Assembly (NCBI GenBank): GCA_021787495.1
Contig: JAJYLX010000003.1
Coordinates: 1-64,000 of the forward strand
Direction: 5' to 3'
Source of the DNA: Microcaldota archaeon
GTDB taxonomy: Archaea > Micrarchaeota > Micrarchaeia > Micrarchaeales > Micrarchaeaceae
DNA: 64,000 nt
Both the position numbers and the translations under genes were made by a program. Positions within the stretch are counted from its first letter, which is position 1. Each line of letters opens with the position of its first letter. Shown here in pieces: positions 24,500 to 37,411 of this stretch. The notes under the pieces were generated by a model, which made no database searches, was not told the DNA's origin, and saw only the letters and a program-made list of their open reading frames with translations.

Positions 24500-24583
24500 G
24501 TCATATCCCGTTGTCGATAAACCTTATTACTGTTTGGATACCAATGTTTATAAAGGGTATTACAAGGCTTATAGGTGACTTTC

Positions 24584-25687: not shown

Positions 25688-25939
25688 TCACTGCCTGTGC
25701 TTCTCCCACTGCTTCGGGTCCATGTAACCGTACTTGCCGGCCCACGTCGTCCATGCTATCGCTATGATGGCCAGCGCCACGACCAGCGCGACCACGACCA
25801 CGATTATCTTCTGGAACAGGCTGTAGCCCTCGGCGTAGAACCCGACGTACAGCAGCGACCCCACGAGGAAGGCGGCGACGATGCCTATAGTCAGCGCGAC
25901 CCTCCACACCATGCCCTCGAATTCGTTTTTCTTCTGCAT
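25688..25939 (-). CDS. Small two-helix membrane protein
   Basis: This 83-residue protein has two hydrophobic stretches (about residues 13-33 and 43-66) and a charged C-terminus (KQWEKHRQ). It is convergent with the geranylgeranyl reductase. No family is recognised. Confidence 0.6.
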   Translation of the reverse strand: MQKKNEFEGMVWRVALTIGIVAAFLVGSLLYVGFYAEGYSLFQKIIVVVVALVVALAIIAIAWTTWAGKYGYMDPKQWEKHRQ

Positions 25940-25974
25940 GACAGCGACCCGCGAAGGCCTCGCACCGCGCGCTT

Positions 25975-26598
25975 TTATCCCTTTCTGAAGCCCGCGCGGC
26001 GGGCGAACGTCACCCTTATGAACCCGCCGCTGCGTAGGACGCCTTTCACGCGGAGCCCGGAGGGCGCCGCGAGGGCGCGCAGCTCCCCTTCCGCTAGGGA
26101 GTGCTGCGCCGCCACCATCCTCCTCAGGCCGGAGAGCCTCTCCCTGTCGACCTCATATATCCTTATCTCCCCTCCCGAGTTCAGGAACCCGGAAAGGTAC
26201 TTCAGGGCTCCTTCCCTGTCGGCCCAGTGGTGGAACGAGAGGGATGCCATTATGACATCGAATCCCTTATCGAAGGGAATGCGCCTGCTCGACCCGGCGG
26301 CGAACGTTATGCCGAGGCCCCTCGACCTCATTCTCGCGATCCGCAGCATGTCCGGCGACGGGTCTATCGCGAATATACCGGCGTTGTCCCAGTGCGGCAA
26401 TCTCGCCAAGGCTATCGGGACGTCGCCCGTACCTGTACCGACGTCGAGAATGCTGCCGAACCCCGCTCTGGAAAGGTCGTGGAGGACGAACCTGTACAGC
26501 TTCCTCATGTCGGGCGACTTCGCACCTAGCCAGTAGGCTAGCGACATGAAGGGCCCGAACCGTTCCTCGCCCTTCCTGTACCCGTTCACGCCGCACAT
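25975..26598 (-). CDS. Class I SAM-dependent methyltransferase
   Basis: This 207-residue protein has motif I (ILDVGTGTGDVPIALA), motif II region (GIFAIDPSPDMLRIA), an acidic motif with FDVIMASLSFHHW and a SGGEIRIYEVD segment, all typical of UbiE-like methyltransferases. The target cannot be read from sequence. The ATG overlaps the TGA of a 28-residue peptide gene (TGATG), so translation is probably coupled. Confidence 0.85.
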   Translation of the reverse strand: MCGVNGYRKGEERFGPFMSLAYWLGAKSPDMRKLYRFVLHDLSRAGFGSILDVGTGTGDVPIALARLPHWDNAGIFAIDPSPDMLRIARMRSRGLGITFAAGSSRRIPFDKGFDVIMASLSFHHWADREGALKYLSGFLNSGGEIRIYEVDRERLSGLRRMVAAQHSLAEGELRALAAPSGLRVKGVLRSGGFIRVTFARRAGFRKG

Positions 26599-26684
26599 CA
26601 CAGGTACACCAACCCGTCCAGCAACAGTATCCCTGTCCCTATCGCCGTCCCTAGAACACGCTTCGCTTTCCCTTTCGAGACCAT
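26598..26684 (-). CDS. Short hydrophobic leader-type peptide, 28 residues
   Basis: ATG to TGA encodes MVSKGKAKRV followed by one hydrophobic helix (LGTAIGTGILLLDGLVYL). GGGTGA lies four bases before the ATG. The stop overlaps the methyltransferase start (TGATG), so ribosomes could pass from this peptide to the enzyme. It might be a membrane peptide or a coupling leader. The short length leaves real doubt. Confidence 0.45.
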   Translation of the reverse strand: MVSKGKAKRVLGTAIGTGILLLDGLVYL

Positions 26685-26761
26685 GCCTTCACCCGGTATC
26701 ATGCTAAATCAAAGTAATAAAACGCTTGCCATGCTTGTCGGGTAGGCCGTTGCCCGGCGCG

Positions 26762-27193
26762 CTAGACCATGTTCCTGTCGCTCAGCAGCCAGTACGCTAT
26801 GAATATCCCGACGAAGCCCGAAACTATGCCGAGGAAGGCGAACGGCACGACCAGGCTCACCACCATGTCTATCGCGAGCGGCGCGCTGAATACGAGAGTG
26901 TAAGAGTAGGGGGTCGCCCTGCCGGCGGCCCTGACCTTCAGGTAGCTGGCGATGAACAGCGTGACGAACGCGGAGTACACCGCGATGAAGAGCAGTATCG
27001 AGAACAGCAGCAGGACCACGATAGCGGTAGCGAAGGCGATCCCCGCTATGGAGAGGACCATGAAAGCCGCTATACTCATCTTCGAGTAGTCGTAGCCGAT
27101 TGATGGGGCGCCACCGGTTGCAGAGCCGACGTACTCCTCGAATGTCTTGGGCCTGGTGCCCTCGTCCGGCTTCAGGGCAGACCATTCCGCCAT
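26762..27193 (-). CDS. Four-helix membrane protein
   Basis: This 143-residue protein has a polar head of about 40 residues (TFEEYVGSATGG) and four hydrophobic segments. The helices occupy about residues 42-66, 70-85, 102-120 and 122-138. No sequon or enzymatic motif is obvious. It lies between the peptide-methyltransferase pair and RdgB on the same strand. Confidence 0.6.
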   Translation of the reverse strand: MAEWSALKPDEGTRPKTFEEYVGSATGGAPSIGYDYSKMSIAAFMVLSIAGIAFATAIVVLLLFSILLFIAVYSAFVTLFIASYLKVRAAGRATPYSYTLVFSAPLAIDMVVSLVVPFAFLGIVSGFVGIFIAYWLLSDRNMV

Positions 27194-27272
27194 AGTGCCA
27201 TCGCATGCGCAGCGTGCGCATTGTGGATTGGGATGGCATGCATAAAAACAGGTGCCTCGTGCGCATAGGCGC

Positions 27273-27842
27273 TCATTGCTTTCCTGCCAGGTAGCGATTG
27301 AGCTTTTCGGCGGCCTTGCCGCGCGAGGACACCTTGTTCTTGGAGATCGTGCCCATCTGGCCGAACGTGAGGTCGTGGCCGCGAGGTATGAATACCGGGC
27401 CCCATCCGAAGTCGAGGCCGCCCTCCGGTGCCTTGCTTATCGTGCCGTATGTCCTCCCGGTGAAGACCTTGAGGCTGCCGCCGTCGCAGAACGCGATTGC
27501 GGTCTCCGAATATGCGCGCCTGTCGGCGTCTGGGACCATGCCGCATATGCGCCTGTTGCCCTTGTCGGCGCCGTCCGGCCTCAGTATCCATTTCACCAGT
27601 GCGCCTGGGAAACCGCCGAGGGCCTTTATGTACAGGCCGGTGTCCTCCACTATCAGGGGCATGCGCACGAGTTTGTATGCCTTCTCCGCCTTGTCCCTTG
27701 CGACCTCGGCCACGTCGAGCGACTGGATCTCCGGCACCTCAACGCTCTTCGCGTCGATCCGCACATCCCCCCTTATCAGCGCGCGCAGCTCGAAGAACTT
27801 GTTCATGTTCGAGCTGACAAAGTACAACTGCTTGGTTGACAT
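27273..27842 (-). CDS. rdgB: XTP/dITP diphosphatase (RdgB/HAM1)
   Basis: This 189-residue protein has the family signatures YFVSSNMNKFFELRAL, VPEIQSLDVAEVARDKAEKAY, LIVEDTGLYIKALGGFPGALVKW and GWGPVFIPRG. It hydrolyses non-canonical purine triphosphates such as dITP, dXTP and ITP to keep them out of DNA and RNA. A TATA-like ATTTATAT lies about 35 bases upstream. It marks the last GC-rich gene before the AT-rich island. Confidence 0.93.
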   Translation of the reverse strand: MSTKQLYFVSSNMNKFFELRALIRGDVRIDAKSVEVPEIQSLDVAEVARDKAEKAYKLVRMPLIVEDTGLYIKALGGFPGALVKWILRPDGADKGNRRICGMVPDADRRAYSETAIAFCDGGSLKVFTGRTYGTISKAPEGGLDFGWGPVFIPRGHDLTFGQMGTISKNKVSSRGKAAEKLNRYLAGKQ

Positions 27843-27920
27843 CCTATCGTTGTTTTCTGTAATCCAGGTGATATAAATACGTTTAGCGCGCCTATGCGGC
27901 CGCTGCGGCGTAGGAATAGC

Positions 27921-27969
27921 ATGCTCCCACCGGGAAGTGGCATTCCAGTTAAGTGTCCACTATATATTG
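27921..27969 (+). repeat. 49-bp repeat, copy 1, with tRNA-Glu-end remnant
   Basis: This copy aligns with 28513-28561, with five differences in 49 bases, all transitions. Both contain GCTCCCAYCGGGA, the 3' end of the tRNA-Glu gene at 36674 (13-14 bases, one transition in this copy). With its flanks it folds into a hairpin around CCC-ACC-GGG. The surrounding 27843-28024 has no gene. Confidence 0.6.
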
Positions 27970-28024
27970 TTATACGTACGGCAATATACGATACAAGGGG
28001 GCACACCAGATACATGTATTGTAC

Positions 28025-28429
28025 TCATGCGCGCTTTTTAGGACGGCTCCCTTCATCTTCCCTTAGCTTAAGGGATTCTATAATCTTTCGCGTGATATCG
28101 GATAGTCGAAAACTGCTGGTATCTTTACCAATCCATGCATATTCTGCAATCTCTGCGCTGGGCTGTCCAAGTTGCCCATCTATGTCTGCAAAATAAACAC
28201 GTGCTCTTAATTTATCACCCTTGTGAGGCGTTATGCCTTCAAAATCTCCACAGAATCTGAAGTTATTAAGTTCAGTTCCGGATAGCTCCTCTCTAACTTC
28301 CCTTCGTAGACATACTAAATCCTCCTCGCCCTCCTTAGGTTTACCTCCAGGTAGTATCCAGCTTTCTACCTTTCTAACCAAAAGAAGCCTACTGTCCTGT
28401 ATAATAGCTGCATTGATTGCTACTCGCAT
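28025..28429 (-). CDS. Nudix hydrolase
   Basis: This 134-residue protein has a canonical Nudix box, G-x5-E-x7-REUxEExGU, read as GGKPKEGEEDLVCLRREVREELSG. Nudix enzymes cleave nucleoside diphosphates linked to another group, and the substrate is not predictable here. The ATG is chosen because a TATA-like TTTATATATTT lies about 34 bases upstream. A longer open frame would begin in the neighbouring repeat. Its composition is clearly more AT-rich than the host genes, and it sits between two copies of a 49-bp repeat, so it is likely acquired. Confidence 0.85.
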   Translation of the reverse strand: MRVAINAAIIQDSRLLLVRKVESWILPGGKPKEGEEDLVCLRREVREELSGTELNNFRFCGDFEGITPHKGDKLRARVYFADIDGQLGQPSAEIAEYAWIGKDTSSFRLSDITRKIIESLKLREDEGSRPKKRA

Positions 28430-28512
28430 GTAGCCACAGAGATGCTTTATTGATCCAAATATATAAACTTTGAGGGACTGGGCCTCATTTTTGCCGTCGA
28501 TTTGTTGTTGGA

Positions 28513-28561
28513 ATGCTCCCATCGGGAAGTAGCATTCCAGTTAAATGCCCACTGTATATTA
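28513..28561 (+). repeat. 49-bp repeat, copy 2, with tRNA-Glu-end remnant
   Basis: This copy holds GCTCCCATCGGGA, identical to the 3' end of the tRNA-Glu gene. It forms a hairpin GGAATGCT / AGCATTCC around CCC-ATC-GGG. It lies directly upstream of the Nudix gene. Confidence 0.6.
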
Positions 28562-28580
28562 TCAATATATTTCAATCGCG

Positions 28581-29594
28581 CTAACTGACAATAAATATCC
28601 TGCCATCTCTCTTTTCTGAATATAATCGTTGCAATGCTTCTGCTCCGTCCTCTAGTTTAAATTTCTTCCATGTTTTTACGCGAAGTTTAGCGGACTGCCT
28701 AACCAAAGAGCTAAAATCCTTCAATGGCCCCCCCGTAGTGCCTATAATCTTTGCATGCCTGCCATAGATTGACTGCATATTGATAGGCACTACAAACCCT
28801 GTGCCCTTCCCATCGACATTTATCCAGCCACCGAAGGTTACCAACCTGCCTTTTTTACCCAATATATTTAGGCTGTCTTGCCACATGGCGGGCCCTAGAG
28901 AATTCAATACGACGTCCGCCATTCTCCCACTGGTTAGTCGCTTTATCGCATTTTGGTTTTTTTCCCTACCAATCAAATACTCGGCGCCAAGTTTCTTAAG
29001 CCAGCCTCTTGAGGATACCGCAATTACATTAGCTTTGCGCATCCTTCCAAATTGTACTGCAAACATTCCGGTATTGCCTGAAGCGCCATAAACAACTAGT
29101 GTCTCGTTCCGCTTTAAATCTGCCTCTTTTATGGCATGATATGGGGTTAATGCTGCTATGCCAAGGCTTGCACCAACCTCCCAACTTGTGTTATCGGGAA
29201 GTTTGAATACATTTTGTTCTGGCACAGCAGAATACTCGGCGTATCCACCATTACTATTTTCACCTATCATGCCGCCCCCATCACACATCATCTCATTCCC
29301 AGAGGTGCACATGTCGCATTTACTATCGAAAAGCCAACTGTATACAGATACCCTATCTCCCCTTTCGACCCGTTTAACATTAGGTCCTATCTTCTCCACT
29401 ACTCCAGCAAATTCCGACCCTGCAATATGTGGGGAAGGCGTAAGATTAGACTCGCCAATCACATAGTAGTCTACTGGATTTACTCCCGCCGCAACTACTC
29501 TTATAAGAACCTCATTTCTTTTTGGCTCTGGTGTTTTTATTTTGCGTACCTCTAGGTTCCTAATCCCGGGCTTATTAGAGACCATCGCTAGCAT
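28581..29594 (-). CDS. Zinc-type MDR alcohol dehydrogenase/quinone reductase-like protein
   Basis: This 337-residue protein of the medium-chain dehydrogenase/reductase superfamily has a GroES-like N-terminal domain (VLIRVVAAGVNPVDYYVI, AGSEFAGVVEKIGPNVK), a partial structural zinc lobe (KCDMC, then one Cys, so three cysteines instead of four) and the NAD(P)-binding motif VVYGASGNTGMFAVQFGRM. The substrate is unknown. A TATA-like TTATTTATAC about 38 bases upstream supports ATG 29594 (or the ATG three codons later). AT-rich composition marks it as part of the acquired island. Confidence 0.85.
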   Translation of the reverse strand: MLAMVSNKPGIRNLEVRKIKTPEPKRNEVLIRVVAAGVNPVDYYVIGESNLTPSPHIAGSEFAGVVEKIGPNVKRVERGDRVSVYSWLFDSKCDMCTSGNEMMCDGGGMIGENSNGGYAEYSAVPEQNVFKLPDNTSWEVGASLGIAALTPYHAIKEADLKRNETLVVYGASGNTGMFAVQFGRMRKANVIAVSSRGWLKKLGAEYLIGREKNQNAIKRLTSGRMADVVLNSLGPAMWQDSLNILGKKGRLVTFGGWINVDGKGTGFVVPINMQSIYGRHAKIIGTTGGPLKDFSSLVRQSAKLRVKTWKKFKLEDGAEALQRLYSEKRDGRIFIVS

Positions 29595-29603
29595 TTAAGA
29601 CAC

Positions 29604-29617: not shown

Positions 29618-29642
29618 CTTGTCAATGTATAAATAAGGGACT

Positions 29643-29700
29643 GCTCCCATCGGGATTTGAACCTGAGTTTCAGGGTTGAAAGCCCCGCGTCCTTGGCCGG
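29643..29700 (-). repeat. Degenerate tRNA-Glu fragment (attachment site)
   Basis: These 58 bases match 36675-36732 with two differences. They cover the tRNA from the D-loop to the acceptor end, and the matching stops at the D-loop side. One change breaks a T-stem pair (a C-A mismatch), so the fragment is non-functional and decaying. This is the usual signature of integration into a tRNA gene. Confidence 0.9.
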
Positions 29701-29804
29701 CTTTGTCGTCGTTTTCTAGCTTCATTCTAGCACCGAATTTTGGATAAAGATTCGCAAGCAGTTTTAGCGGATTTGAACCCACCAAATATGGCATAGAGGG
29801 TATT

Positions 29805-29854
29805 TAACCTAGCACGGTTCAGATCGTTAAGCATCTGAACCCAAACCTAGGTTA
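29805..29854. repeat. Composite palindrome near the attachment site
   Basis: Outer arms TAACCTAG (29805-29812) and CTAGGTTA (29847-29854) enclose GGTTCAGAT (29816-29824) and ATCTGAACC (29833-29841) with an 8-base loop. All arms are perfect. It lies between the attachment fragment and the first small gene and may be a recombination-factor or origin site. Confidence 0.65.
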
Positions 29855-29927
29855 GATACCGCCGGTTTTGTCAAATGTTTCTTTTACTAAGGTAAATATT
29901 TATATATTTTAATATAATATTATAACT

Positions 29928-30101
29928 ATGGCTACTTCAATGAAAAAACTACCTTTTAGGAATGGTTACACTATAGACGTTAGATTGAAAGAATTTAGAA
30001 AAATCGTATTTGTTAGAGGAAAACCACACATAATCTTTATACGATTTGATTCTGCTAAAGGGCAACAACTTTTGCTTAAATTAAGAAATAACTCAAAATA
30101 G
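29928..30101 (+). CDS. Small basic protein, 57 residues
   Basis: ATG to TAG encodes 57 residues, strongly basic and beta-rich: MATSMKKLPFRNGYTIDV, RLKEFRKIVFVRGKPHIIFIR, FDSAKGQQLLLKLRNNSK. A TATA-like TTTATATATTTT about 25 bases upstream makes it leaderless. It is the first gene of the element next to the attachment fragment, where excisionase or copy-control genes often lie, so a DNA-binding role is likely but unproven. Confidence 0.6.
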   Translation: MATSMKKLPFRNGYTIDVRLKEFRKIVFVRGKPHIIFIRFDSAKGQQLLLKLRNNSK

Positions 30102-30122
30102 TAGGTTGTTCCAATATAAGTA

Positions 30123-32054
30123 TTATAGTCTTAATTTTGATTCGAAATATCTCTGTGTGTCTTTATCTACAAAATAGACATAACATCCTTTTAATCCTCT
30201 AGTCATTAAAACACGATAAATGTTCCGTATATATTCATCAAACTTTTCTTTGCTATTCTTCCTTCTTAGATAAGGATCTTTATTTCCTTCCTTATTGGAG
30301 ACTAGTTTATTCTTCTCTTTGTCCCATCTCAGATCAGGACCTACTATTACCCCTATATAATCAAATTCGAATCCTTGTGCTGTATAAATACAACCGACCT
30401 GTTTGATTCCCTCAGGTTTATATGCCCATTCATACCATTTGACGTAGCCTTCGGGAGCATTTATGTTCATATGTGTTTCCCATGGCATTTCAAAATCTCC
30501 AATCTTAACATCTTTTACTAGTTTATTATTAGAATCCAATCTTGTTGACCACGGCCAACAATAACCAGCCACGATCCTGGCAGTCATCCCTTTCATAGAA
30601 TTTTTTTGCTTTATTATCTCATAGAGCTCATTCGGAGAAGATACAATTCTAAAGTCAAAATTATCCTCCTTAGTTAAGATTTTCTCTTCGTTATTATGAC
30701 CCAATACAGATTCTACCCAATCCAAATAGTTTTCAGAACCATTGCACCTAAATTGGGATTTTAATTCAGGGACTTCTTCAGCATTTTTACCTAATTTTTT
30801 AGCGGCCTCCCTAATTAATTTTGTGCTACCTATCTCTGCACCACGTATTATTTGTTTATCATCTATAAAGAATATCGATGTTTTTGCACACCTGATTAGT
30901 TGTTCTATTTGTGGCATTTCTGTTCTGTCTTCCCTTTTTGTAAATCTTCTATTTGATGTTTCACCAATTCTATGTGCTTCATCAACGATAAGGATATCAA
31001 GTTCATCCTCTTTGATTCTTGTTGGAACAAATGGCTCTAAGCCAGTAAACAGTATTTTCGCATTTATTTTACCTGCCTTTTGTCTCCTCTCCATTCTATG
31101 TTTTATTGCTTCAATTAGTGGTTTTGATCTTGAAGAAAAAAATATTTTGTAATTTTTATCTTTATGTCCTGCAAATTCTGCCAAAATATGTAGTGCTATT
31201 ACTGTCTTACCGGTGCCAGGTCCTCCCTTTACAATTACTACGCTTTTCTCACCGTTTTCTTCTGCCTTTTTGATTTTATCTACAATTACATTTCTAGCAT
31301 ATATTTGATCGTCTAGTAAGCTAAAATCTGATTCTTTCTTTATAATTCTTGAAGCACTTTCTAGCAACTTTTTAGATGGTTTTAAAGGCGATTCCATGAA
31401 TTTATTAAAAATATCGAATCCATTCTCTTGACTCAATAATTCATTTAATCTGTCGGCCAGTTTTCTAATATCCTCTTTTGTATAAATTGGAAATTTCTTA
31501 ATCAACTCACTATATTTCGGTGCAAAGAGACCTTCACCATCATGTTTTTCATAATTGGGGCAATATGCGTAACCGAATAAGTCTGTGTTACCTTCCTCGA
31601 AAATTTCAACAAATCCGATTAGATAATTATGATAGCCCTGAACTTGTTGAGAAGGATGTGCAACTTTTCTTGTAGCGCCACCAGTATATGTTTCGATGAA
31701 ATTGCCTTCGGAGGCTAAAGCGTCCACTTTTTGCCATTGTTTCAATTCTATATGTATAATTATGCCCTTTTGGTTGTTTTTATTGCCTTTCCCAAATAAT
31801 AGACAGTCGATCCTTTTTTGAGTGTAAGGCACTTGATATTCAAATGCGACATAGAGATTTTTTAGCCCACTTAACTCTATAAGGTTCTTAACAACTTTTC
31901 CAGTATCTATCCATGAATTATATTCAGAAGCTTTTGGGCTTTTACCATACATAGTAGAAAAATTTTTCTTAACTACATCTGCAAATTTATTAATTAATAC
32001 ATCATCAAAGAATATTTGCTGCGTTGAATCATATATGATATCTCGCGTTCGCAT
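30123..32054 (-). CDS. Nuclease-helicase fusion (PD-(D/E)XK plus DUF2075-like)
   Basis: This 643-residue protein has two parts. The N-terminal domain carries a PD-(D/E)XK-like signature: QKRIDCLLFG (Asp about 84) and IIIHIELKQW (Glu-x-Lys about 102-104). The C-terminal ATPase has Walker A GGPGTGKTVIA (about 277), Walker B DILIVDEAHR (about 351), a QFRCNGSENY arginine segment, a YTAQGFEFD motif and a final VLMTRGLKGCYVY motif. These match the DUF2075/Schlafen-like helicase group. The gene starts three bases after the MazG-like stop. DUF2075 proteins are known from defence islands, so an anti-phage or anti-plasmid role is plausible. Confidence 0.82.
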   Translation of the reverse strand: MRTRDIIYDSTQQIFFDDVLINKFADVVKKNFSTMYGKSPKASEYNSWIDTGKVVKNLIELSGLKNLYVAFEYQVPYTQKRIDCLLFGKGNKNNQKGIIIHIELKQWQKVDALASEGNFIETYTGGATRKVAHPSQQVQGYHNYLIGFVEIFEEGNTDLFGYAYCPNYEKHDGEGLFAPKYSELIKKFPIYTKEDIRKLADRLNELLSQENGFDIFNKFMESPLKPSKKLLESASRIIKKESDFSLLDDQIYARNVIVDKIKKAEENGEKSVVIVKGGPGTGKTVIALHILAEFAGHKDKNYKIFFSSRSKPLIEAIKHRMERRQKAGKINAKILFTGLEPFVPTRIKEDELDILIVDEAHRIGETSNRRFTKREDRTEMPQIEQLIRCAKTSIFFIDDKQIIRGAEIGSTKLIREAAKKLGKNAEEVPELKSQFRCNGSENYLDWVESVLGHNNEEKILTKEDNFDFRIVSSPNELYEIIKQKNSMKGMTARIVAGYCWPWSTRLDSNNKLVKDVKIGDFEMPWETHMNINAPEGYVKWYEWAYKPEGIKQVGCIYTAQGFEFDYIGVIVGPDLRWDKEKNKLVSNKEGNKDPYLRRKNSKEKFDEYIRNIYRVLMTRGLKGCYVYFVDKDTQRYFESKLRL

Positions 32055-32056
32055 TG

Positions 32057-32422
32057 TTACAACTCATTATATTTTTTATTCGATCCCTTTGCCTTCGCTA
32101 TTGGATACTTTTCCCTGTTCTTCGCCATTTTCTTATCGAATGCGGTAACAAGGTCAATGTCATATTTTTGAGCTAATCTTATCAGAAAATATAGGGTATC
32201 CGCCATTTCCTCGCTTATTTCCTCTTTTCTCTTAGGATCCTTTAACATAGCTTCCATTTCGGCTTCCGATTTGAATCTGAACGGCTCTAGAAGCTCCGAG
32301 GCCTCAGTAATTACACCTATAGCCAATTCCTTTGGGCTGTGATACTGATCCCAGTTACGTTCATCGCAATGCTTTTTCACTATAGCTTTTAATTGGGCTA
32401 TATTGGTATCTGAATCGTTCAT
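32057..32422 (-). CDS. MazG-like nucleotide pyrophosphohydrolase
   Basis: This 121-residue protein has the all-alpha NTP pyrophosphatase signature: ITEASELLEPF (ExxE) and EEISEEMADTLYFLIRLA (ExxD), and RNWDQYHSPKELAIG before it. Members hydrolyse dCTP or other NTPs to monophosphates. It is separated by two or three bases from the downstream nuclease-helicase gene. A stand-alone MazG next to a helicase-nuclease could drain nucleotides during infection, which is inference. Confidence 0.85.
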   Translation of the reverse strand: MNDSDTNIAQLKAIVKKHCDERNWDQYHSPKELAIGVITEASELLEPFRFKSEAEMEAMLKDPKRKEEISEEMADTLYFLIRLAQKYDIDLVTAFDKKMAKNREKYPIAKAKGSNKKYNEL

Positions 32423-32453
32423 TCTCTCACAATTGTTATCTGATTATAGATTC

Positions 32454-32786
32454 TTAAAGTGCAAACATCTCTTTCAACGCGCTTTTTATTTTATTTGTTT
32501 GGTATTCCTCTATCTTACCTATCTGCGTTCCTGATATTCTGACCTTATCTATAGCTCTGAGTTGGAATACGAGCGCAACACTATTATCTCTTAAATTAGT
32601 TGAGCCAGTCTTATTTATTTGAATAGTGTATGGAAGATTAAGGTGTTCTAAATTGCTTGTTAACGGTATGACTATGTACATACCTAATTCGCTTATGGCT
32701 TTCAGTATTATCGCTGGCCTTGGATTACTCTGCTCGTGTCCTTTACCGGTCCCAAAATCAACATTGTGTATGCTGTACTCTTCCAT
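32454..32786 (-). CDS. MazF/PemK-type toxin
   Basis: About 110 residues from the ATG at 32786: DFGTGKGHEQSNPRPAIIL, YIVIPLTSNLEHLNLPYTIQI, STNLRDNSVALVFQLRAIDKVRI, and a C-terminal helix EEYQTNKIKSALKEMF. These match the MazF/PemK fold. In canonical MazF the motif reads GSEQGGxRPvlIl, and the QSNPRP here corresponds to it. MazF cleaves mRNA at specific sites. The upstream gene ends four bases before it, the usual antitoxin-toxin order. A longer start would overlap that gene. Confidence 0.85.
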   Translation of the reverse strand: MEEYSIHNVDFGTGKGHEQSNPRPAIILKAISELGMYIVIPLTSNLEHLNLPYTIQINKTGSTNLRDNSVALVFQLRAIDKVRISGTQIGKIEEYQTNKIKSALKEMFAL

Positions 32787-32790
32787 GTGA

Positions 32791-33345
32791 TCATTGCCCG
32801 TACCTTCCCAAACTCTCATTACTTATGTTGTCCCACTCTTCCATTTCGCTTTTTAGAGAGTTCATTATCGTTTCACGAAGCTTTTCCGTTAAGAAGAGTT
32901 TCTTTATCGTGTTTGTTCCTCTCCATATGTCCTCCATTTTCAAATGTGGTTTACGTGAATTAAGCTCGATTTCTGCCTTATTTTCATCAAAACCTCTGTC
33001 CCTTTCCAAAAAGAGTAGACTAGCGACTATCTCTAAATCTGTTTGATTCAGAGTCTCCAACAACGGTTTCACTCTTTCTATTTCCCCATATTCTTCCTTT
33101 GTCGGCTTATAATCGCTCTTGCCGTTCACAAAATCTTCTTTGTTACCAAAATAATCTCTTGCCAATTCACGAGAATATGGTCCTCTTATATAGAAATTAA
33201 AATCGCCATATAATTGCTTGCCAATAATCTTTTGAATAATATAAGTTAGCTTTTGTGCCTTTATTCTCGAGTCAAAGCGGTCGCTGTCTATCTTAACTCC
33301 TAATAGATTCAGATATCCTATCAATTTTCTAGTTTGTTCCTTCAT
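32791..33345 (-). CDS. Panacea/YwgA-like protein, candidate antitoxin of MazF
   Basis: This 184-residue protein has an N-terminal helical region with RIKAQKLTYIIQKIIGKQLYGDFNFYIRGPYSRELARDYF, the pattern of YwgA-type and Panacea (DUF4065) proteins (KLxYhxQ, then F-x-x-x-GPYS-x-E). The C-terminal half is charged and helical. It lies directly before a MazF-type toxin gene. Panacea proteins neutralise diverse toxins in known toxin-antitoxin pairs, so it may be the antitoxin. Assignment between YwgA and Panacea is uncertain. Confidence 0.65.
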   Translation of the reverse strand: MKEQTRKLIGYLNLLGVKIDSDRFDSRIKAQKLTYIIQKIIGKQLYGDFNFYIRGPYSRELARDYFGNKEDFVNGKSDYKPTKEEYGEIERVKPLLETLNQTDLEIVASLLFLERDRGFDENKAEIELNSRKPHLKMEDIWRGTNTIKKLFLTEKLRETIMNSLKSEMEEWDNISNESLGRYGQ

Positions 33346-33356
33346 AAAATCCCATA

Positions 33357-33707
33357 CTATTTTTCCTTTTTGTCTTGGTGTATAAATATACTATCAAGCC
33401 AATGCTTAACACTATCGCGGGTTTGCTTGCCAGATTCTGTTATATAATACACAACAACCGTTTTCTCATCTACCTTTTCCTCTTTTGATTCAACATATTT
33501 GTGATCTTTAAGCCAGGCTAAATTAGGTCCTAACGAACCGTCTTCGAGCATTAATGCATCCTTTATGTCTTGGTATGCCACTCCGTCTTCGCCATAATAG
33601 TCGAGCATCGCCAATACGCTTATCCTAGCATACAACAATACACGCCGTAACTTTCTGTCCAGAGAAGAGGGAAGGCTGTTGTACTTTCCATCTACAGTAG
33701 CCATCAT
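33357..33707 (-). CDS. Winged-helix DNA-binding protein
   Basis: This 116-residue protein has a winged-helix layout: LLYARISVLAMLDYYGEDGVAYQDIKDALMLEDGSLGPNLAWLKDHKYVESKEEKVDEKTVVVYYITESGKQTRDSV. The pattern matches PadR/ArsR-like 'transcriptional regulator' folds, including the wing with ITESG. A TATA-like GGTATTTATATCT about 25 bases upstream makes it leaderless. It heads the minus-strand cargo and is a likely regulator of the toxin and defence genes. Confidence 0.78.
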   Translation of the reverse strand: MMATVDGKYNSLPSSLDRKLRRVLLYARISVLAMLDYYGEDGVAYQDIKDALMLEDGSLGPNLAWLKDHKYVESKEEKVDEKTVVVYYITESGKQTRDSVKHWLDSIFIHQDKKEK

Positions 33708-33832
33708 AGTTTGTTATGAATGGTAAGATATAAATACCTTCTTGATGATATATTTCATGGTTACTTTAGCTTTTATAAAATTGCACAAAAGCTTTTTATA
33801 ATATATAGGTTATATAATTTATATGTGATAAT

Positions 33833-33997
33833 ATGTCAGACGAAAAGAAAGACGATAAAGTCGCTCAAGGAATGGCTGCAGGTATCGCGGGTGGAGCAGG
33901 CGTTGGCCTTGTGCTTGGACCCGCCGGTGTGATAGTAGGTGCTATAATAGGTGGCATTATAGGTGCTGCAGCTGGCAACGCGGCTAGAAATCAGTAG
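33833..33997 (+). CDS. Glycine-zipper peptide, 54 residues
   Basis: ATG to TAG encodes 54 residues. An acidic/basic head (MSDEKKDDKVAQG) is followed by one long hydrophobic run rich in Gly and Ala with repeated GxxxG spacing (GIAGGAGVGLVLGPAGVIVG, then AIIGGIIGAAAGN). Such glycine zippers occur in pore-forming class II bacteriocin-like peptides and in small phage or plasmid membrane proteins. The TATA-like TTTTTATAATATAT lies about 30 bases upstream. It begins a plus-strand operon with two membrane proteins. Confidence 0.65.
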   Translation: MSDEKKDDKVAQGMAAGIAGGAGVGLVLGPAGVIVGAIIGGIIGAAAGNAARNQ

Positions 33998-34009
33998 ATA
34001 GCGATCAAG

Positions 34010-34336
34010 ATGGCACTTTGGATTTCTGGACTTTCTGCGCCCGCTGTAGAGGCCCTCGGACCAATAAGCTTGCTGATAGTGGGTTTCTTAGTTGAACGGA
34101 AGTTCATAAGTAGAATGACGATCTTTACAAACACCATCGCACTTAACCTTATGGTCTTTAATCTTACCAGTCCACCAGTTTACCTGATATGGTATGCCAA
34201 CATAGGAATCTTGCTGGGTATAGTGGCACTCATATCGTATGCCTTGCAGACAAGCATGTCTAGAGTGTTTTATCTAATTGGGTGGCTGTATTGTTCTGTT
34301 GTTGTAGCTGCCTTAATCCTTATATTCGCATTCTAG
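34010..34336 (+). CDS. Small membrane protein with four segments
   Basis: This 108-residue protein is almost wholly hydrophobic, with likely helices at about residues 15-31, 39-58, 60-79 and 84-107. A single polar turn (ERKFISR) and TSMSR lie between them. It starts 12 bases after the glycine-zipper stop, so both are in one operon. It could be an immunity or transport partner of the peptide. No family is recognised. Confidence 0.6.
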   Translation: MALWISGLSAPAVEALGPISLLIVGFLVERKFISRMTIFTNTIALNLMVFNLTSPPVYLIWYANIGILLGIVALISYALQTSMSRVFYLIGWLYCSVVVAALILIFAF

Positions 34337-34360
34337 TGGATACTCTAGCAGGTTGATCGC

Positions 34361-35296
34361 GTGGCCAAACATAAATTAATGGCATTAATTAATACGAAGA
34401 GGAACTACTTCGTCCCATTTTTGCTGATCAGCCTTGCGATTATCATCACCAGTTTCTATTACGGCACATACTACTCGGCCTCGAAGTCACTACCATGTAG
34501 TACAACTATTGTGTGCATCACTTCATATACGACTTCTATGTTCAATGGCTATACCGAAACGCTGACAGGGTTAAGTTTTGGAAATGTATACGAAAACGTA
34601 TCATGGGCCATTATGATTTTATTGGCCGTACCGGCGATTGCGATATTTACTGGATATGAGCGATATCTTGGTCTGATGCTAGTCAGCATAATAATATCTC
34701 AGGCCATATTCGTTGTTATTTATCCGACGCTTATATTGCCACATCTGACAAGCACTCCGACCTTTGGCGGTGGCTTGTCGCTATCCTGTACATTTAGCCT
34801 GATAACAATTGTGGCTTTCTTGCTTTTGTATTTTTACAACGTAGAAAAAAATAATAGAACTATAGATAACTGGTCTAGTTTCCTTAAACTGGCTGGCCTT
34901 CCACTAGCAATATTCACGGAGACGCTATATCTCGTTTTGTCCATATCAAACATTCTTTCTTACAGTACCAATCAAACCGAGGCTCTTATATTATCAATAG
35001 CTTTAGAGATTGTTGCATTGCTTGTACTTCTTGGTTATGTTTTCTTCTTTATCTACCAACCACTGAAAAAGAACGCTAGAAAGTATAATATCAATCCAAA
35101 GATACTCACAAAGCGAATTGTGATATTCTGTCTCTTGATAGGGGTCGCCGCTTCTATACTCCTGGCTAGTTATCTGTTGCCCTTTGTTATCTTTTATAAG
35201 GGCCTGACGATAAAAGGACTGTTGAATCCGCACAATATTAGTCTGCCAATCTTTGCCTTAGTTACGTTTGTCCTGTTAAAGGTAAAACAGGCTTAA
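34361..35296 (+). CDS. Polytopic membrane protein with about eight segments
   Basis: This 311-residue protein has hydrophobic stretches throughout and a cysteine pair (LPCSTTIVC) in the first outer loop. A GTG start has a GGTTGAT-like site upstream, and an ATG lies six codons later. It ends the glycine-zipper operon. No transporter signature was seen. The composition is AT-rich, like the other cargo. Confidence 0.65.
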   Translation: MAKHKLMALINTKRNYFVPFLLISLAIIITSFYYGTYYSASKSLPCSTTIVCITSYTTSMFNGYTETLTGLSFGNVYENVSWAIMILLAVPAIAIFTGYERYLGLMLVSIIISQAIFVVIYPTLILPHLTSTPTFGGGLSLSCTFSLITIVAFLLLYFYNVEKNNRTIDNWSSFLKLAGLPLAIFTETLYLVLSISNILSYSTNQTEALILSIALEIVALLVLLGYVFFFIYQPLKKNARKYNINPKILTKRIVIFCLLIGVAASILLASYLLPFVIFYKGLTIKGLLNPHNISLPIFALVTFVLLKVKQA

Positions 35297-35422
35297 CATT
35301 TCTCTTAGACTTAATCGCCCTATCCTATTCTTTCCTTCGGGTCGGCCTGAAACCTGCGGTCTCACAGGCTTCGCCTGCTAGGGCCTCCCAAACTAGCAAC
35401 CTAGCAGTATAAGGCACCTCTC

Positions 35423-35514
35423 GGCGTTTTGAGGGGGGGCAAAACGCCTCATCTAGTAGTCGTAGCCACCGCCCGAAGCGATAGCTTCGGCGCACCCGAA
35501 GGGTGCGAGGTGGC
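35423..35514 (+). ncRNA. GC-rich structured RNA candidate with three-way junction
   Basis: Inside an AT-rich element this stretch is GC-rich and contains only perfect hairpins. First is GGCGTTTTG-(8)-CAAAACGCC (35423-35448). Then an outer stem GCCACC / GGTGGC (35465-35470, 35509-35514) encloses CCGAAGC-GATA-GCTTCGG (35473-35490) and CGCACCC-GAA-GGGTGCG (35491-35507). The last three stems form a three-way junction. It lies between the membrane-protein operon and the integrase. The strand is undecided, because both would fold. Confidence 0.6.
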
Positions 35515-35578
35515 GTAGGCTCGACTCTACTCGATTTTCAGAAAATCTCGTGAAATATGCGGTTTCGCGACTAGTGGT

Positions 35579-35770
35579 GAGTTTTACGAGGGAAAACCAC
35601 CCAAAATCATGCCAAAAGGGGTCAAAAAACTCCACTCGATTGAGTTTTTGCCTTTTCTCTACATGATTTTGCAAAACCGCCATGCTGGTAGCCAAAAATC
35701 GACTAAGGGGGAGTTTTACGAGGGAAAACGCCTATTTTTCTGCCCGAATGGGGTCAAATTTCTCTACATG
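35579..35770 (+). repeat. Paired direct repeats before the integrase 3' end
   Basis: GAGTTTTACGAGGGAAAAC occurs exactly at 35579-35597 and 35711-35729. TTTCTCTACATG occurs at 35654-35665 and 35759-35770, with GGGGTCAAA between them in both modules. So two modules of the same order differ in length (about 87 and 60 bases). They could be recombinase or replication binding sites. Confidence 0.7.
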
Positions 35771-35773
35771 GCC

Positions 35774-36682
35774 CTATTTTTGGCCTTCCATATCTATGAT
35801 ACGCCATTTTAGCCTCTCTGCTTGCTGGGAGAAGGTATTATCTATCTCTCGGTATAGCCCCTGCTTGGTCGTGCTGATGTATGTCTGGGTTACGCCGGTG
35901 CTTCTATGCCTGGCAAACTTGCTGGTAAGCACCACGTTGCCGTTAGTCTGCTTGGCGAAGCTGGTTATGGCGTAATGCCTAAGGCTGTGCGTAGTGAGCC
36001 TATGCAACCTTCTAGGCGTTCTGTTATAGTTGGTCTCATCGCTGGAATCGTAGACCTCATCCAGACCAGTCTTTTGGACGTAGTATCTGAAGCTGTTCCT
36101 CACATAGTCCGTACTTAGATACGGCTCATCCCTATGGCTGTATTTGCCCTCTTCCTTGAAGAAGAGGTATCCATCCTTTTGGATGTGCCTTTCGTACTGC
36201 CTGATGTACTCCAACGTCAACTTGAAGAGAGGTATCGGGATAATAAGTGTATTGAGCGTATGCACCTTTTCTGTCCTTATCTTCAACTCTCTGCTGTTGA
36301 AATCTATGTCCTTGATATTGACCTTTACTGCTTCGCCTATTCTGAGGCCAAGCTGCGCTTGATATTGGAATAACAGTCGAAGCTTCTCGTTGTCTATCAT
36401 TCGAAAGAATAACTGCACCTCCTGTTCGGTAAAGCCTTTGTTGAGGCTTCCGTATTTAGGAGGTTGGTTCTTCGCGAACTTCTTGATGAACTGTTTGTGT
36501 ACTATCTTCTTGATTTGTTTGAATTGTTGGTGTGTAAGCTTAGGTAGTATCGAATACAAGTCGTTTATAAATCTAGTGTATTCGGATTCTTTATTGGATT
36601 TGAACCCATCTTTCTCTCTGTTTTGCTTATTTTGCTTCTTTTTGAACCCGAGCTTGTCTTCGCAAATTGCATTTGCTCCCAT
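35774..36682 (-). CDS. Tyrosine recombinase (integrase) of the element
   Basis: This 302-residue phage-type integrase has a Lys-rich N-terminal arm-binding region, a SAM-like core and a catalytic domain: LGLRIGEAV (Arg about 113), THSLRHYAIT (His-x-x-Arg), KFARHRSTG (second His) and TQTYIS (Tyr about 269). The likely catalytic set R-H-R-H-Y is present. Its ATG lies inside the last nine bases of the tRNA-Glu gene, so it is transcribed with the host tRNA after integration. The gene is not split by the attachment site, unlike SSV-type integrases. Confidence 0.88.
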   Translation of the reverse strand: MGANAICEDKLGFKKKQNKQNREKDGFKSNKESEYTRFINDLYSILPKLTHQQFKQIKKIVHKQFIKKFAKNQPPKYGSLNKGFTEQEVQLFFRMIDNEKLRLLFQYQAQLGLRIGEAVKVNIKDIDFNSRELKIRTEKVHTLNTLIIPIPLFKLTLEYIRQYERHIQKDGYLFFKEEGKYSHRDEPYLSTDYVRNSFRYYVQKTGLDEVYDSSDETNYNRTPRRLHRLTTHSLRHYAITSFAKQTNGNVVLTSKFARHRSTGVTQTYISTTKQGLYREIDNTFSQQAERLKWRIIDMEGQK

Positions 36683-36748
36683 CGGGATTTGAACCCGAGT
36701 TGCAGGGTTGAAAGCCCCGCGTCCTTGGCCGGACTAGACGATAGGAGC
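36674..36748 (-). tRNA. tRNA-Glu (anticodon UUC)
   Basis: A 75-base cloverleaf: acceptor GCTCCTA / TGGGAGC, D-arm GTCTAGTCCGGCCAAGGAC, anticodon loop CTTTCAA with anticodon TTC (reads Glu), and T-loop GTTCAAATC. The 3' half is duplicated at 29643-29700. The gene is the insertion target of the 7.1-kb element and remains intact. It starts four bases after the thymidylate kinase stop. A weak TATA-like CAATAATAAGC lies about 28 bases upstream, within that gene. Confidence 0.96.
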
Positions 36749-36751
36749 GCG

Positions 36752-37411
36752 TCACTGCCGCTCGACCGCGCTTATTATTGCTTCGTGAACCTTTTCAATG
36801 CTTTGGCTTCCGTCAATCAGCACGCAATTCTCGTATTCCTTGGCCAGCTCGAGGTAAGTCTTCCTCACCCTCTTCATCAGGTCCAGCTGCCGCTCGAAGA
36901 GGTCCGGCTGCATGCCCTGCTCGAGGCGCTGCTGCCTCTTCCTCGACAATGCGACCTCGGGGTCCAGGTCTATGATCAGCGTCCTGTCCGGCAGCGGGAA
37001 CCTGCTGTTCATCAGCTTGAGCCACTCCCTGTCGACGCCCGTCGCCTCGCCGTACGCTATCGTCGAGAAGAAGTACCTGCTGGTTATGACCGTTCTCTTG
37101 CCGTCGAGCGCGGGCTTTATCGTGCCCGCGACGTGGCTCGCCCTGTCGGCGACATAGAGGAGCTGCAGCGCCGTCGGGTCGAACCTCTCCGGCCCGTGCA
37201 GCAGCATGTCTATCAGGTTGCCCAGGGGGCCCGAATCTGTGGGCTCGGCCGTGAGCAGGCACTCGCCCCTCTTTCTCATGTGGTTGTAGAGCATCTGCGA
37301 CTGGATGGTCTTGCCGCAACTGTCTATGCCTTCCAGAGCGATGAACAGAGGATCCCCCTCAATATTGGATGGAATCGAATAAAAAGAGTTCTGCCATGCG
37401 CCTACTGCCAC
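36752..37411 (-). CDS. tmk: Thymidylate kinase
   Basis: About 219 residues, with the dTMP kinase P-loop FIALEGIDSCGKT, the DRY-like YVADRASHV region, ITSRYFFSTIAYGEATG, and a LID region (EVALSRKRQQRL). It converts dTMP to dTDP. The start is uncertain. No ATG, GTG or TTG lies close to the P-loop. The nearest standard option is the GTG at 37411, which overlaps the previous gene and adds about 22 residues. ATT (37361) or CTG (37346) are possible non-standard starts. It is coupled to a DUF1599 gene. Confidence 0.87.
   Translation of the reverse strand: MAVGAWQNSFYSIPSNIEGDPLFIALEGIDSCGKTIQSQMLYNHMRKRGECLLTAEPTDSGPLGNLIDMLLHGPERFDPTALQLLYVADRASHVAGTIKPALDGKRTVITSRYFFSTIAYGEATGVDREWLKLMNSRFPLPDRTLIIDLDPEVALSRKRQQRLEQGMQPDLFERQLDLMKRVRKTYLELAKEYENCVLIDGSQSIEKVHEAIISAVERQ

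Follow-up and report, generated by a model that had tools for sequence, protein, structure and literature searches.

A dCTP pyrophosphatase 1-like MazG gene paired with a nuclease-helicase gene in an integrative element of a Microcaldota archaeon: a candidate antiviral module

Among the described systems closest to the gene pair analyzed here, which consists of a MazG gene followed by a nuclease-helicase gene, is the PADLOC candidate PDC-S41. Its model is matched by all 23 nuclease-helicase sequences aligned in this study (best E 3.5e-25), the length is similar (657), and certain relatives match it over both the nuclease and the helicase. The protein encoded in the window, that is, the whole 64,000-nucleotide stretch of contig JAJYLX010000003.1 of a Microcaldota archaeon that was analyzed, matches it in separate stretches, the best of which covers only residues 197-329, so that its membership in PDC-S41 is not established. 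PDC-S41 also differs from the pair in being an unvalidated candidate with a single-gene definition and without a MazG partner. Several such unvalidated PADLOC candidates are enriched in DPANN according to a survey of archaeal immunity (PMC12988326), and PDC-S41 was named nowhere in the literature searched.

A related helicase half is also found in Nhi and AbiO (E 1e-13 and 1e-12, respectively), SF1 helicases with an N-terminal nuclease; however, the match is confined to about residues 194-486, on the helicase side, and leaves the nuclease domain unmatched. To our knowledge, neither of them has a MazG partner. Human group III Schlafens (SLFN5, SLFN11, and SLFN14) belong to the same helicase family according to the Pfam name of PF09848, and the model of the window protein aligns with the SLFN11 helicase with Z 10.3-10.4 (4.9 Å, 266-268 residues). 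In contrast to Schlafens proper, which carry an N-terminal AlbA_2/Schlafen core, the window protein has no PF04326 match and carries an intact predicted PD-(D/E)XK domain instead. SLFN14 residues 402-555, the linker region before the helicase, weakly match the model of the window nuclease (Z 5.8), which raises the question of whether the Schlafen linker could be a decayed PD-(D/E)XK domain. The GIY-YIG-SLFN-g3 helicases of Bacteroidota share both the helicase family and the same MazG directly upstream, but they carry a GIY-YIG nuclease and often a C-terminal S24 peptidase domain.

The smaller protein of the pair resembles dCTP pyrophosphatase 1 (dCTPP1, RS21-C6) and other dimeric MazGs. dCTP pyrophosphatase 1 hydrolyzes dCTP and 5-modified dCTPs, and dCTPP1-type MazGs are sanitation enzymes. 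These proteins stand alone, whereas the window MazG lies in a tight operon with the helicase. A MazG NTP-pyrophosphohydrolase domain has also been predicted by DefensePredictor to act in defense, as an unvalidated system (PMC13092281); the available text of that study leaves the partner genes unnamed, so that the system may or may not be the pair described here. The literature search returned nothing that joins MazG with DUF2075, the former name of PF09848, although an earlier prediction may exist in older comparative-genomics papers; judged from their titles, the publications naming DUF2075 or COG3410 appear to be genome or expression reports. A preliminary description, made from the window sequence, had not recognized the pair as a described system, which holds for the combination of MazG with a nuclease-helicase but not for the helicase family itself, which already has a relative among the PADLOC candidates. 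The pair represents a kind of nuclease-helicase defense candidate to which a dedicated pyrophosphohydrolase has been added.

Domains and motifs of the two proteins

Both genes lie on the minus strand, with MazG (32057..32422) upstream of the nuclease-helicase (30123..32054), and exactly 2 bp separate the MazG stop from the nuclease-helicase start, in agreement with the nearly abutting reading frames noted earlier. MazG, a protein of 121 aa, is a predicted all-alpha NTP pyrophosphohydrolase: Pfam places it among MazG-like proteins (PF12643, E 2e-13), its nearest PDB match is RS21-C6/dCTP pyrophosphatase 1 (E 5e-20), and the alignment of the family with dCTPP1 (2a3q/6sqw) extends over the whole length, including RDWxQFH and the terminal KKYxEL. 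The ExxE...ExxD metal-binding motif (residues 40-43 and 72-75) is intact, as are K98 and N102, and the putative metal ligands E40, E43, E72, and D75 are, together with K98 and N102, invariant among the 23 copies aligned. This motif and the full-length match identify the protein as a dCTPP1-type MazG.

The nuclease-helicase comprises 643 aa, of which residues 242-643 (about 30126-31331) form the SF1 SLFN-g3/DUF2075 helicase half. The Pfam family SLFN-g3_helicase (PF09848) is matched at residues 270-630 with E 1.4e-94 and from end to end (profile positions 1-354 of 354). Walker A (GGPGTGKT, residues 277-284, 31203..31226) and Walker B/motif II (DEAH, residues 358-361, 30972..30983) are conserved; neither G280-T-G-K283 nor the D358EAH361 box varies in the alignment of 23 sequences, in which the relatives share 48-75% identity with the window protein. 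Against solved structures, the nuclease-helicase sequence gave weak ATPase matches only, and in a structural comparison the modeled helicase half aligned with the SF1 helicases DSH9 (Z 13.0), Dda (12.5), Rep (12.3), and UvrD (12.1).

In the N-terminal 240 aa (residues 1-240, about 31335-32054), Pfam matched nothing. Alignment of the same 23 sequences revealed there a set of invariant residues typical of a PD-(D/E)XK core (31740..31808), namely D83 (31806-31808) and E103-x-K105 (E103 at 31746-31748, K105 at 31740-31742), accompanied by E44 (31923-31925) and by Q137-xxx-Y141, which reads QVxGY in residues 137-141 (31632-31646). In the AlphaFold2 model of this domain (mean pLDDT 91), D83 lies on strand 81-90, E103 ends strand 97-104 with K105 just after it, and the two strands are adjacent, as in a PD-(D/E)XK sheet; Q137-VxG-Y141 is located in helix 134-148, after the core, in the position of the RecB-type QxxxY motif. 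Plain Foldseek with the model returned zero matches below E 0.001. The best VIA-align matches were Cdn1 (Z 8.9, 144 residues aligned), Can2 (8.3), and VC1899 (8.1), followed at lower ranks by further PD-(D/E)XK enzymes, among them Card1, EndoMS, McrBC, and BsoBI; taken one by one, the Z values are moderate, and the fold call is based on the consistency of this list together with the motifs. Motifs and model support the assignment of the N-terminal domain as a putative RecB-type PD-(D/E)XK nuclease. The original reading of the two genes, as a MazG-like enzyme and a PD-(D/E)XK-like nuclease joined to a DUF2075 ATPase with intact Walker motifs, is borne out by these data, and the nuclease structure, named in advance as a point on which that reading could fail, agrees with PD-(D/E)XK folds in the model.

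The integrative element

The pair resides in an AT-rich integrative element of about 7 kb (29642-36748), inserted at a tRNA-Glu(TTC) gene of a small archaeal genome. The intact tRNA gene (36674..36748, minus strand, ARAGORN) is the integration target, and its 3' 59 bp (36674-36732) constitute one attachment repeat; the second, a 59-bp copy with 97% identity, lies at 29642..29700 on the same strand, in direct orientation and at a distance of 7032 bp. A tyrosine integrase gene (35774..36682, minus strand; Phage_integrase E 1e-12, PHROG integrase E 8e-20) starts inside the tRNA-Glu repeat. The G+C content is 33-47% in the element against mostly 55-64% in the flanks. In a congener (G080), a single intact tRNA-Glu gene is flanked by orthologs of two window genes, that at 37402, which lies next to it, and that at 24575, on the opposite side, and a profile search of the genomes of the phylum found no nuclease-helicase in either of the two congeners. 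The tRNA-end repeats, the integrase at the tRNA gene, the shift in composition, and the unoccupied site in a relative characterize the region as a tRNA-integrated element. Methyltransferase-like, Ham1, NUDIX, and zinc-dependent alcohol dehydrogenase genes at 25700-29600, which in the window occupy the interval from the gene at 24575 to the tRNA copy, are also missing at the corresponding position in G080, and a single event therefore does not account for the difference between the window and this congener; the G+C content is already low from 28 kb onward.

Inside the element, the pair terminates a same-strand run that begins with a winged-helix regulator (33357..33707, minus strand; HTH_34 E 1e-9) and continues with a 184-aa ORF (32791..33345, minus strand), a PemK/MazF-type toxin of 121 aa (32454..32819, minus strand; PF02452 E 8e-20), which lies 31 bp from MazG, then MazG and, last, the nuclease-helicase. 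The 184-aa ORF is weakly similar to part of DarG (residues 22-83; PADLOC DarG E 2e-4, NCBIfam 0.03) and is a possible antitoxin partner of MazF; its relatives were absent from the plasmid search. The regulator, the 184-aa ORF, and MazF/PemK (32454-33707) likely form a toxin-antitoxin operon, in which the antitoxin lacks a clear family assignment. Two further ORFs (34010..35296, plus strand; 108 and 311 aa) are hydrophobic-looking and have no confident family match. The neighboring toxin genes had been taken as support for a defense role of the pair. This argument did not survive comparison: in none of the other copies of the pair was a relative of MazF, of the 184-aa ORF, or of the HTH protein found as a neighbor. 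The toxin genes therefore say little about the function of the pair, their operon can be ruled out as part of the system, and they appear simply to travel with the pair on the same element.

Recurrence, variants, and neighbors of the pair

When one genome per species was scanned, relatives with 45-76% identity were recovered at 26 loci, in MAGs of Nano-, Woese-, Pace-, and Aenigmarchaeota, in Bacteroidota, Fibrobacter, and others, and nearly all of these loci have MazG immediately upstream. Among full-length copies with enough upstream DNA to judge, 33 of 44 have MazG directly upstream on the same strand within 120 bp, with gaps mostly between -4 and +15 bp, in a set that spans DPANN archaea, a halophile, Bacteroidota, Priestia, and a cyanophage; the same holds for 7/8 helicase-only homologs. 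In four further full-length copies, MazG is broken or extra genes intervene, and about a quarter of the full-length relatives have no adjacent MazG. The pair also occurs on plasmids, in a Microcystis phage, and in viral contigs. Co-occurrence in other genomes was the second point on which the preliminary description had staked its reading, and recurrence of this extent rules out chance adjacency.

Whole-genome profile searches, which are less biased than the scan for relatives, showed a patchy distribution. In the phylum of the window organism, the nuclease-helicase is present in 6/146 genomes and MazG in 28, with an adjacent pair in five, that is, MazG is adjacent in 5/6 genomes with the nuclease-helicase (Fisher p = 0.001 for co-presence). 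In a sample of Bacteroidota, helicase matches occur in 14/247 genomes, with MazG adjacent to 6/8 full-length and 6/7 helicase-only forms. The reverse does not hold: 23/28 MazG genomes of the phylum have no nuclease-helicase, and none of the 58 MazG loci of viral contigs has a helicase directly downstream. MazG is far more common without the helicase than with it and can therefore be regarded as a general accessory; the link runs one way, the helicase mostly coming with MazG, and dependence in both directions is ruled out. dCTPP1-like MazG without a helicase is common in IMG/VR viral contigs (L120-L183). Evolutionary distances of the two proteins correlate across 34 full-length pairs (r 0.31, reached in 0/5000 permutations), and the correlation falls to r 0.14 once helicase-only forms are added.

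The nuclease module varies within this conserved gene order. The four helicase-only homologs scanned all contain GIY-YIG in place of PD-(D/E)XK, and three of the four (L102, L103, and L105) have a C-terminal LexA-like S24 peptidase domain and MazG directly upstream. The retention of the same MazG when the nuclease type changes points to coupling with the helicase. In nine bacterial or phage copies, the same-strand run upstream of MazG includes, mostly directly upstream, a TPR protein of about 600-670 aa (for example, L012 1982-3943, L017 2735-4660, L024 2838-4643, and L033 1626-3641). Its C-terminal half, in which Pfam found no match, contains an H-E-[LM]-x-H motif in 9/9 proteins, which suggests a zinc peptidase; one viral contig also carries this HEXXH protein, split in two pieces. 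Further arrangements include a Parabacteroides gordonii nuclease-helicase (L027 4739-7230) split between codons 394/395 by a group II intron with a reverse transcriptase/maturase (Rfam RF00029), tandem nuclease-helicases behind one MazG, comprising a divergent copy with a helicase-only match and one of the PD-(D/E)XK type (L028 2952-7013), and two full-length nuclease-helicases in tandem without MazG (L030 2898-6884).

Restriction and other defense-type genes are found near some copies. In L010 and on the Priestia plasmid, the pair is directly adjoined by MrcB_N/DUF3578 proteins, and a relative is present in the neighborhood of L026; type I RM and DUF3578 genes are next to some copies; and both L026 and L099 have GmrSD type IV restriction genes beside the pair, a relative being present in L107. 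Other neighbors are DUF2779 proteins (L003, L004, and L026), Fic (L019), and an endonuclease/exonuclease/phosphatase family protein (L012). PADLOC matches near the pair (IetS, RdrB, PD-Lambda-2_B, HEC-05/06, and SoFic) are modestly more frequent than in shifted control regions, which also give matches, several of them to helicase-type models.

Possible functions of the pair

Taking these observations together, we see an even chance that the two genes form an antiviral module that moves horizontally. The nuclease-helicase would probably act as an ATP-driven SF1 helicase with a RecB-type nuclease, engaging free or replicating nucleic acid of the invader, which we suppose to be DNA rather than RNA, and probably unwinding and then cutting it. 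MazG would probably act on (d)CTP or on modified dCTPs, hydrolyzing them to the monophosphate, and the resulting loss of (d)CTP would leave the invader unable to repair or replicate nucleic acid under degradation, so that the two proteins may be coupled physically or functionally. Against such a module speak the occurrence of MazG mostly without the helicase, the modest enrichment of defense genes, the roughly one quarter of full-length copies without an adjacent MazG, and the weakening of the distance correlation by the helicase-only forms.

A specific form of the antiviral explanation, which we consider unlikely, is surveillance of modified cytosine, in which MazG would remove the 5-modified dCTP of a phage, and the nuclease-helicase, together with modification-dependent restriction factors, would act on modified DNA. 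The grouping of MazG with an enzyme that accepts 5-modified dCTPs fits this idea, as do the MrcB_N/DUF3578 and GmrSD genes near the pair, but such neighbors are present at a minority of loci and absent from the window, and substrate preference is not something that a sequence can reveal. Similarly improbable in our view is a toxin-like abortive module, in which the nuclease-helicase would attack host nucleic acid on infection, and MazG would license or restrain it, e.g., by destroying an activating nucleotide. A helicase that is mostly accompanied by MazG, and not the reverse, would be expected if MazG were needed for tolerance or control, and the S24 peptidase domain or the upstream HEXXH TPR protein of certain homologs may indicate regulated activation; in addition, a phage MazG-like protein, Atd1, has been reported to degrade (p)ppGpp and thereby block a suicide response (PMC10419184). 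Against it is the quarter of full-length copies without an adjacent MazG.

A role in house-cleaning or DNA repair, with a nucleotide-pool sanitizer serving a repair nuclease-helicase and no antiviral function, would suit a MazG of the sanitation type and an architecture, RecB-type nuclease with SF1 helicase, that is also found in repair, Dna2 being among the matches. Still, the patchy presence in 6/146 and 14/247 genomes, carriage on an integrative element, plasmids, and phage, the swapping of nucleases, and the restriction-gene neighbors are atypical of repair genes and make this role quite improbable. Highly doubtful is a function for the integrative element itself (replication, competitor exclusion, or counter-defense), as might be read from the presence of the pair in a small integrase-bearing element, phage, and viral contigs, since tRNA genes are hardly ever near the other copies checked, and most of these copies also lack a relative of the window integrase.

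Returning to the antiviral module, a wider interpretation can be proposed, although tentatively, as it is somewhat unlikely in its full extent: the pair may represent a widespread undescribed defense family that combines a dCTP-type pyrophosphohydrolase with a Schlafen-type helicase to which an exchangeable nuclease is fused, the two forming one system against modified or rapidly replicating invader DNA. In some bacteria, the TPR HEXXH protease would control this system, and its helicase half would be a prokaryotic counterpart of the antiviral human Schlafens.

If a defense role is confirmed, a single small mobile operon, distributed from archaea with tiny genomes to Bacteroidota, would unite nucleotide depletion with nucleic-acid degradation, and the MazG enzymes of mobile elements would gain a function. 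Such an operon would also allow the helicase half of antiviral Schlafens to be studied experimentally in bacteria or archaea, and, as MazG stays constant while the nuclease modules are swapped, simple mutants would suffice for a direct test of the coupling.
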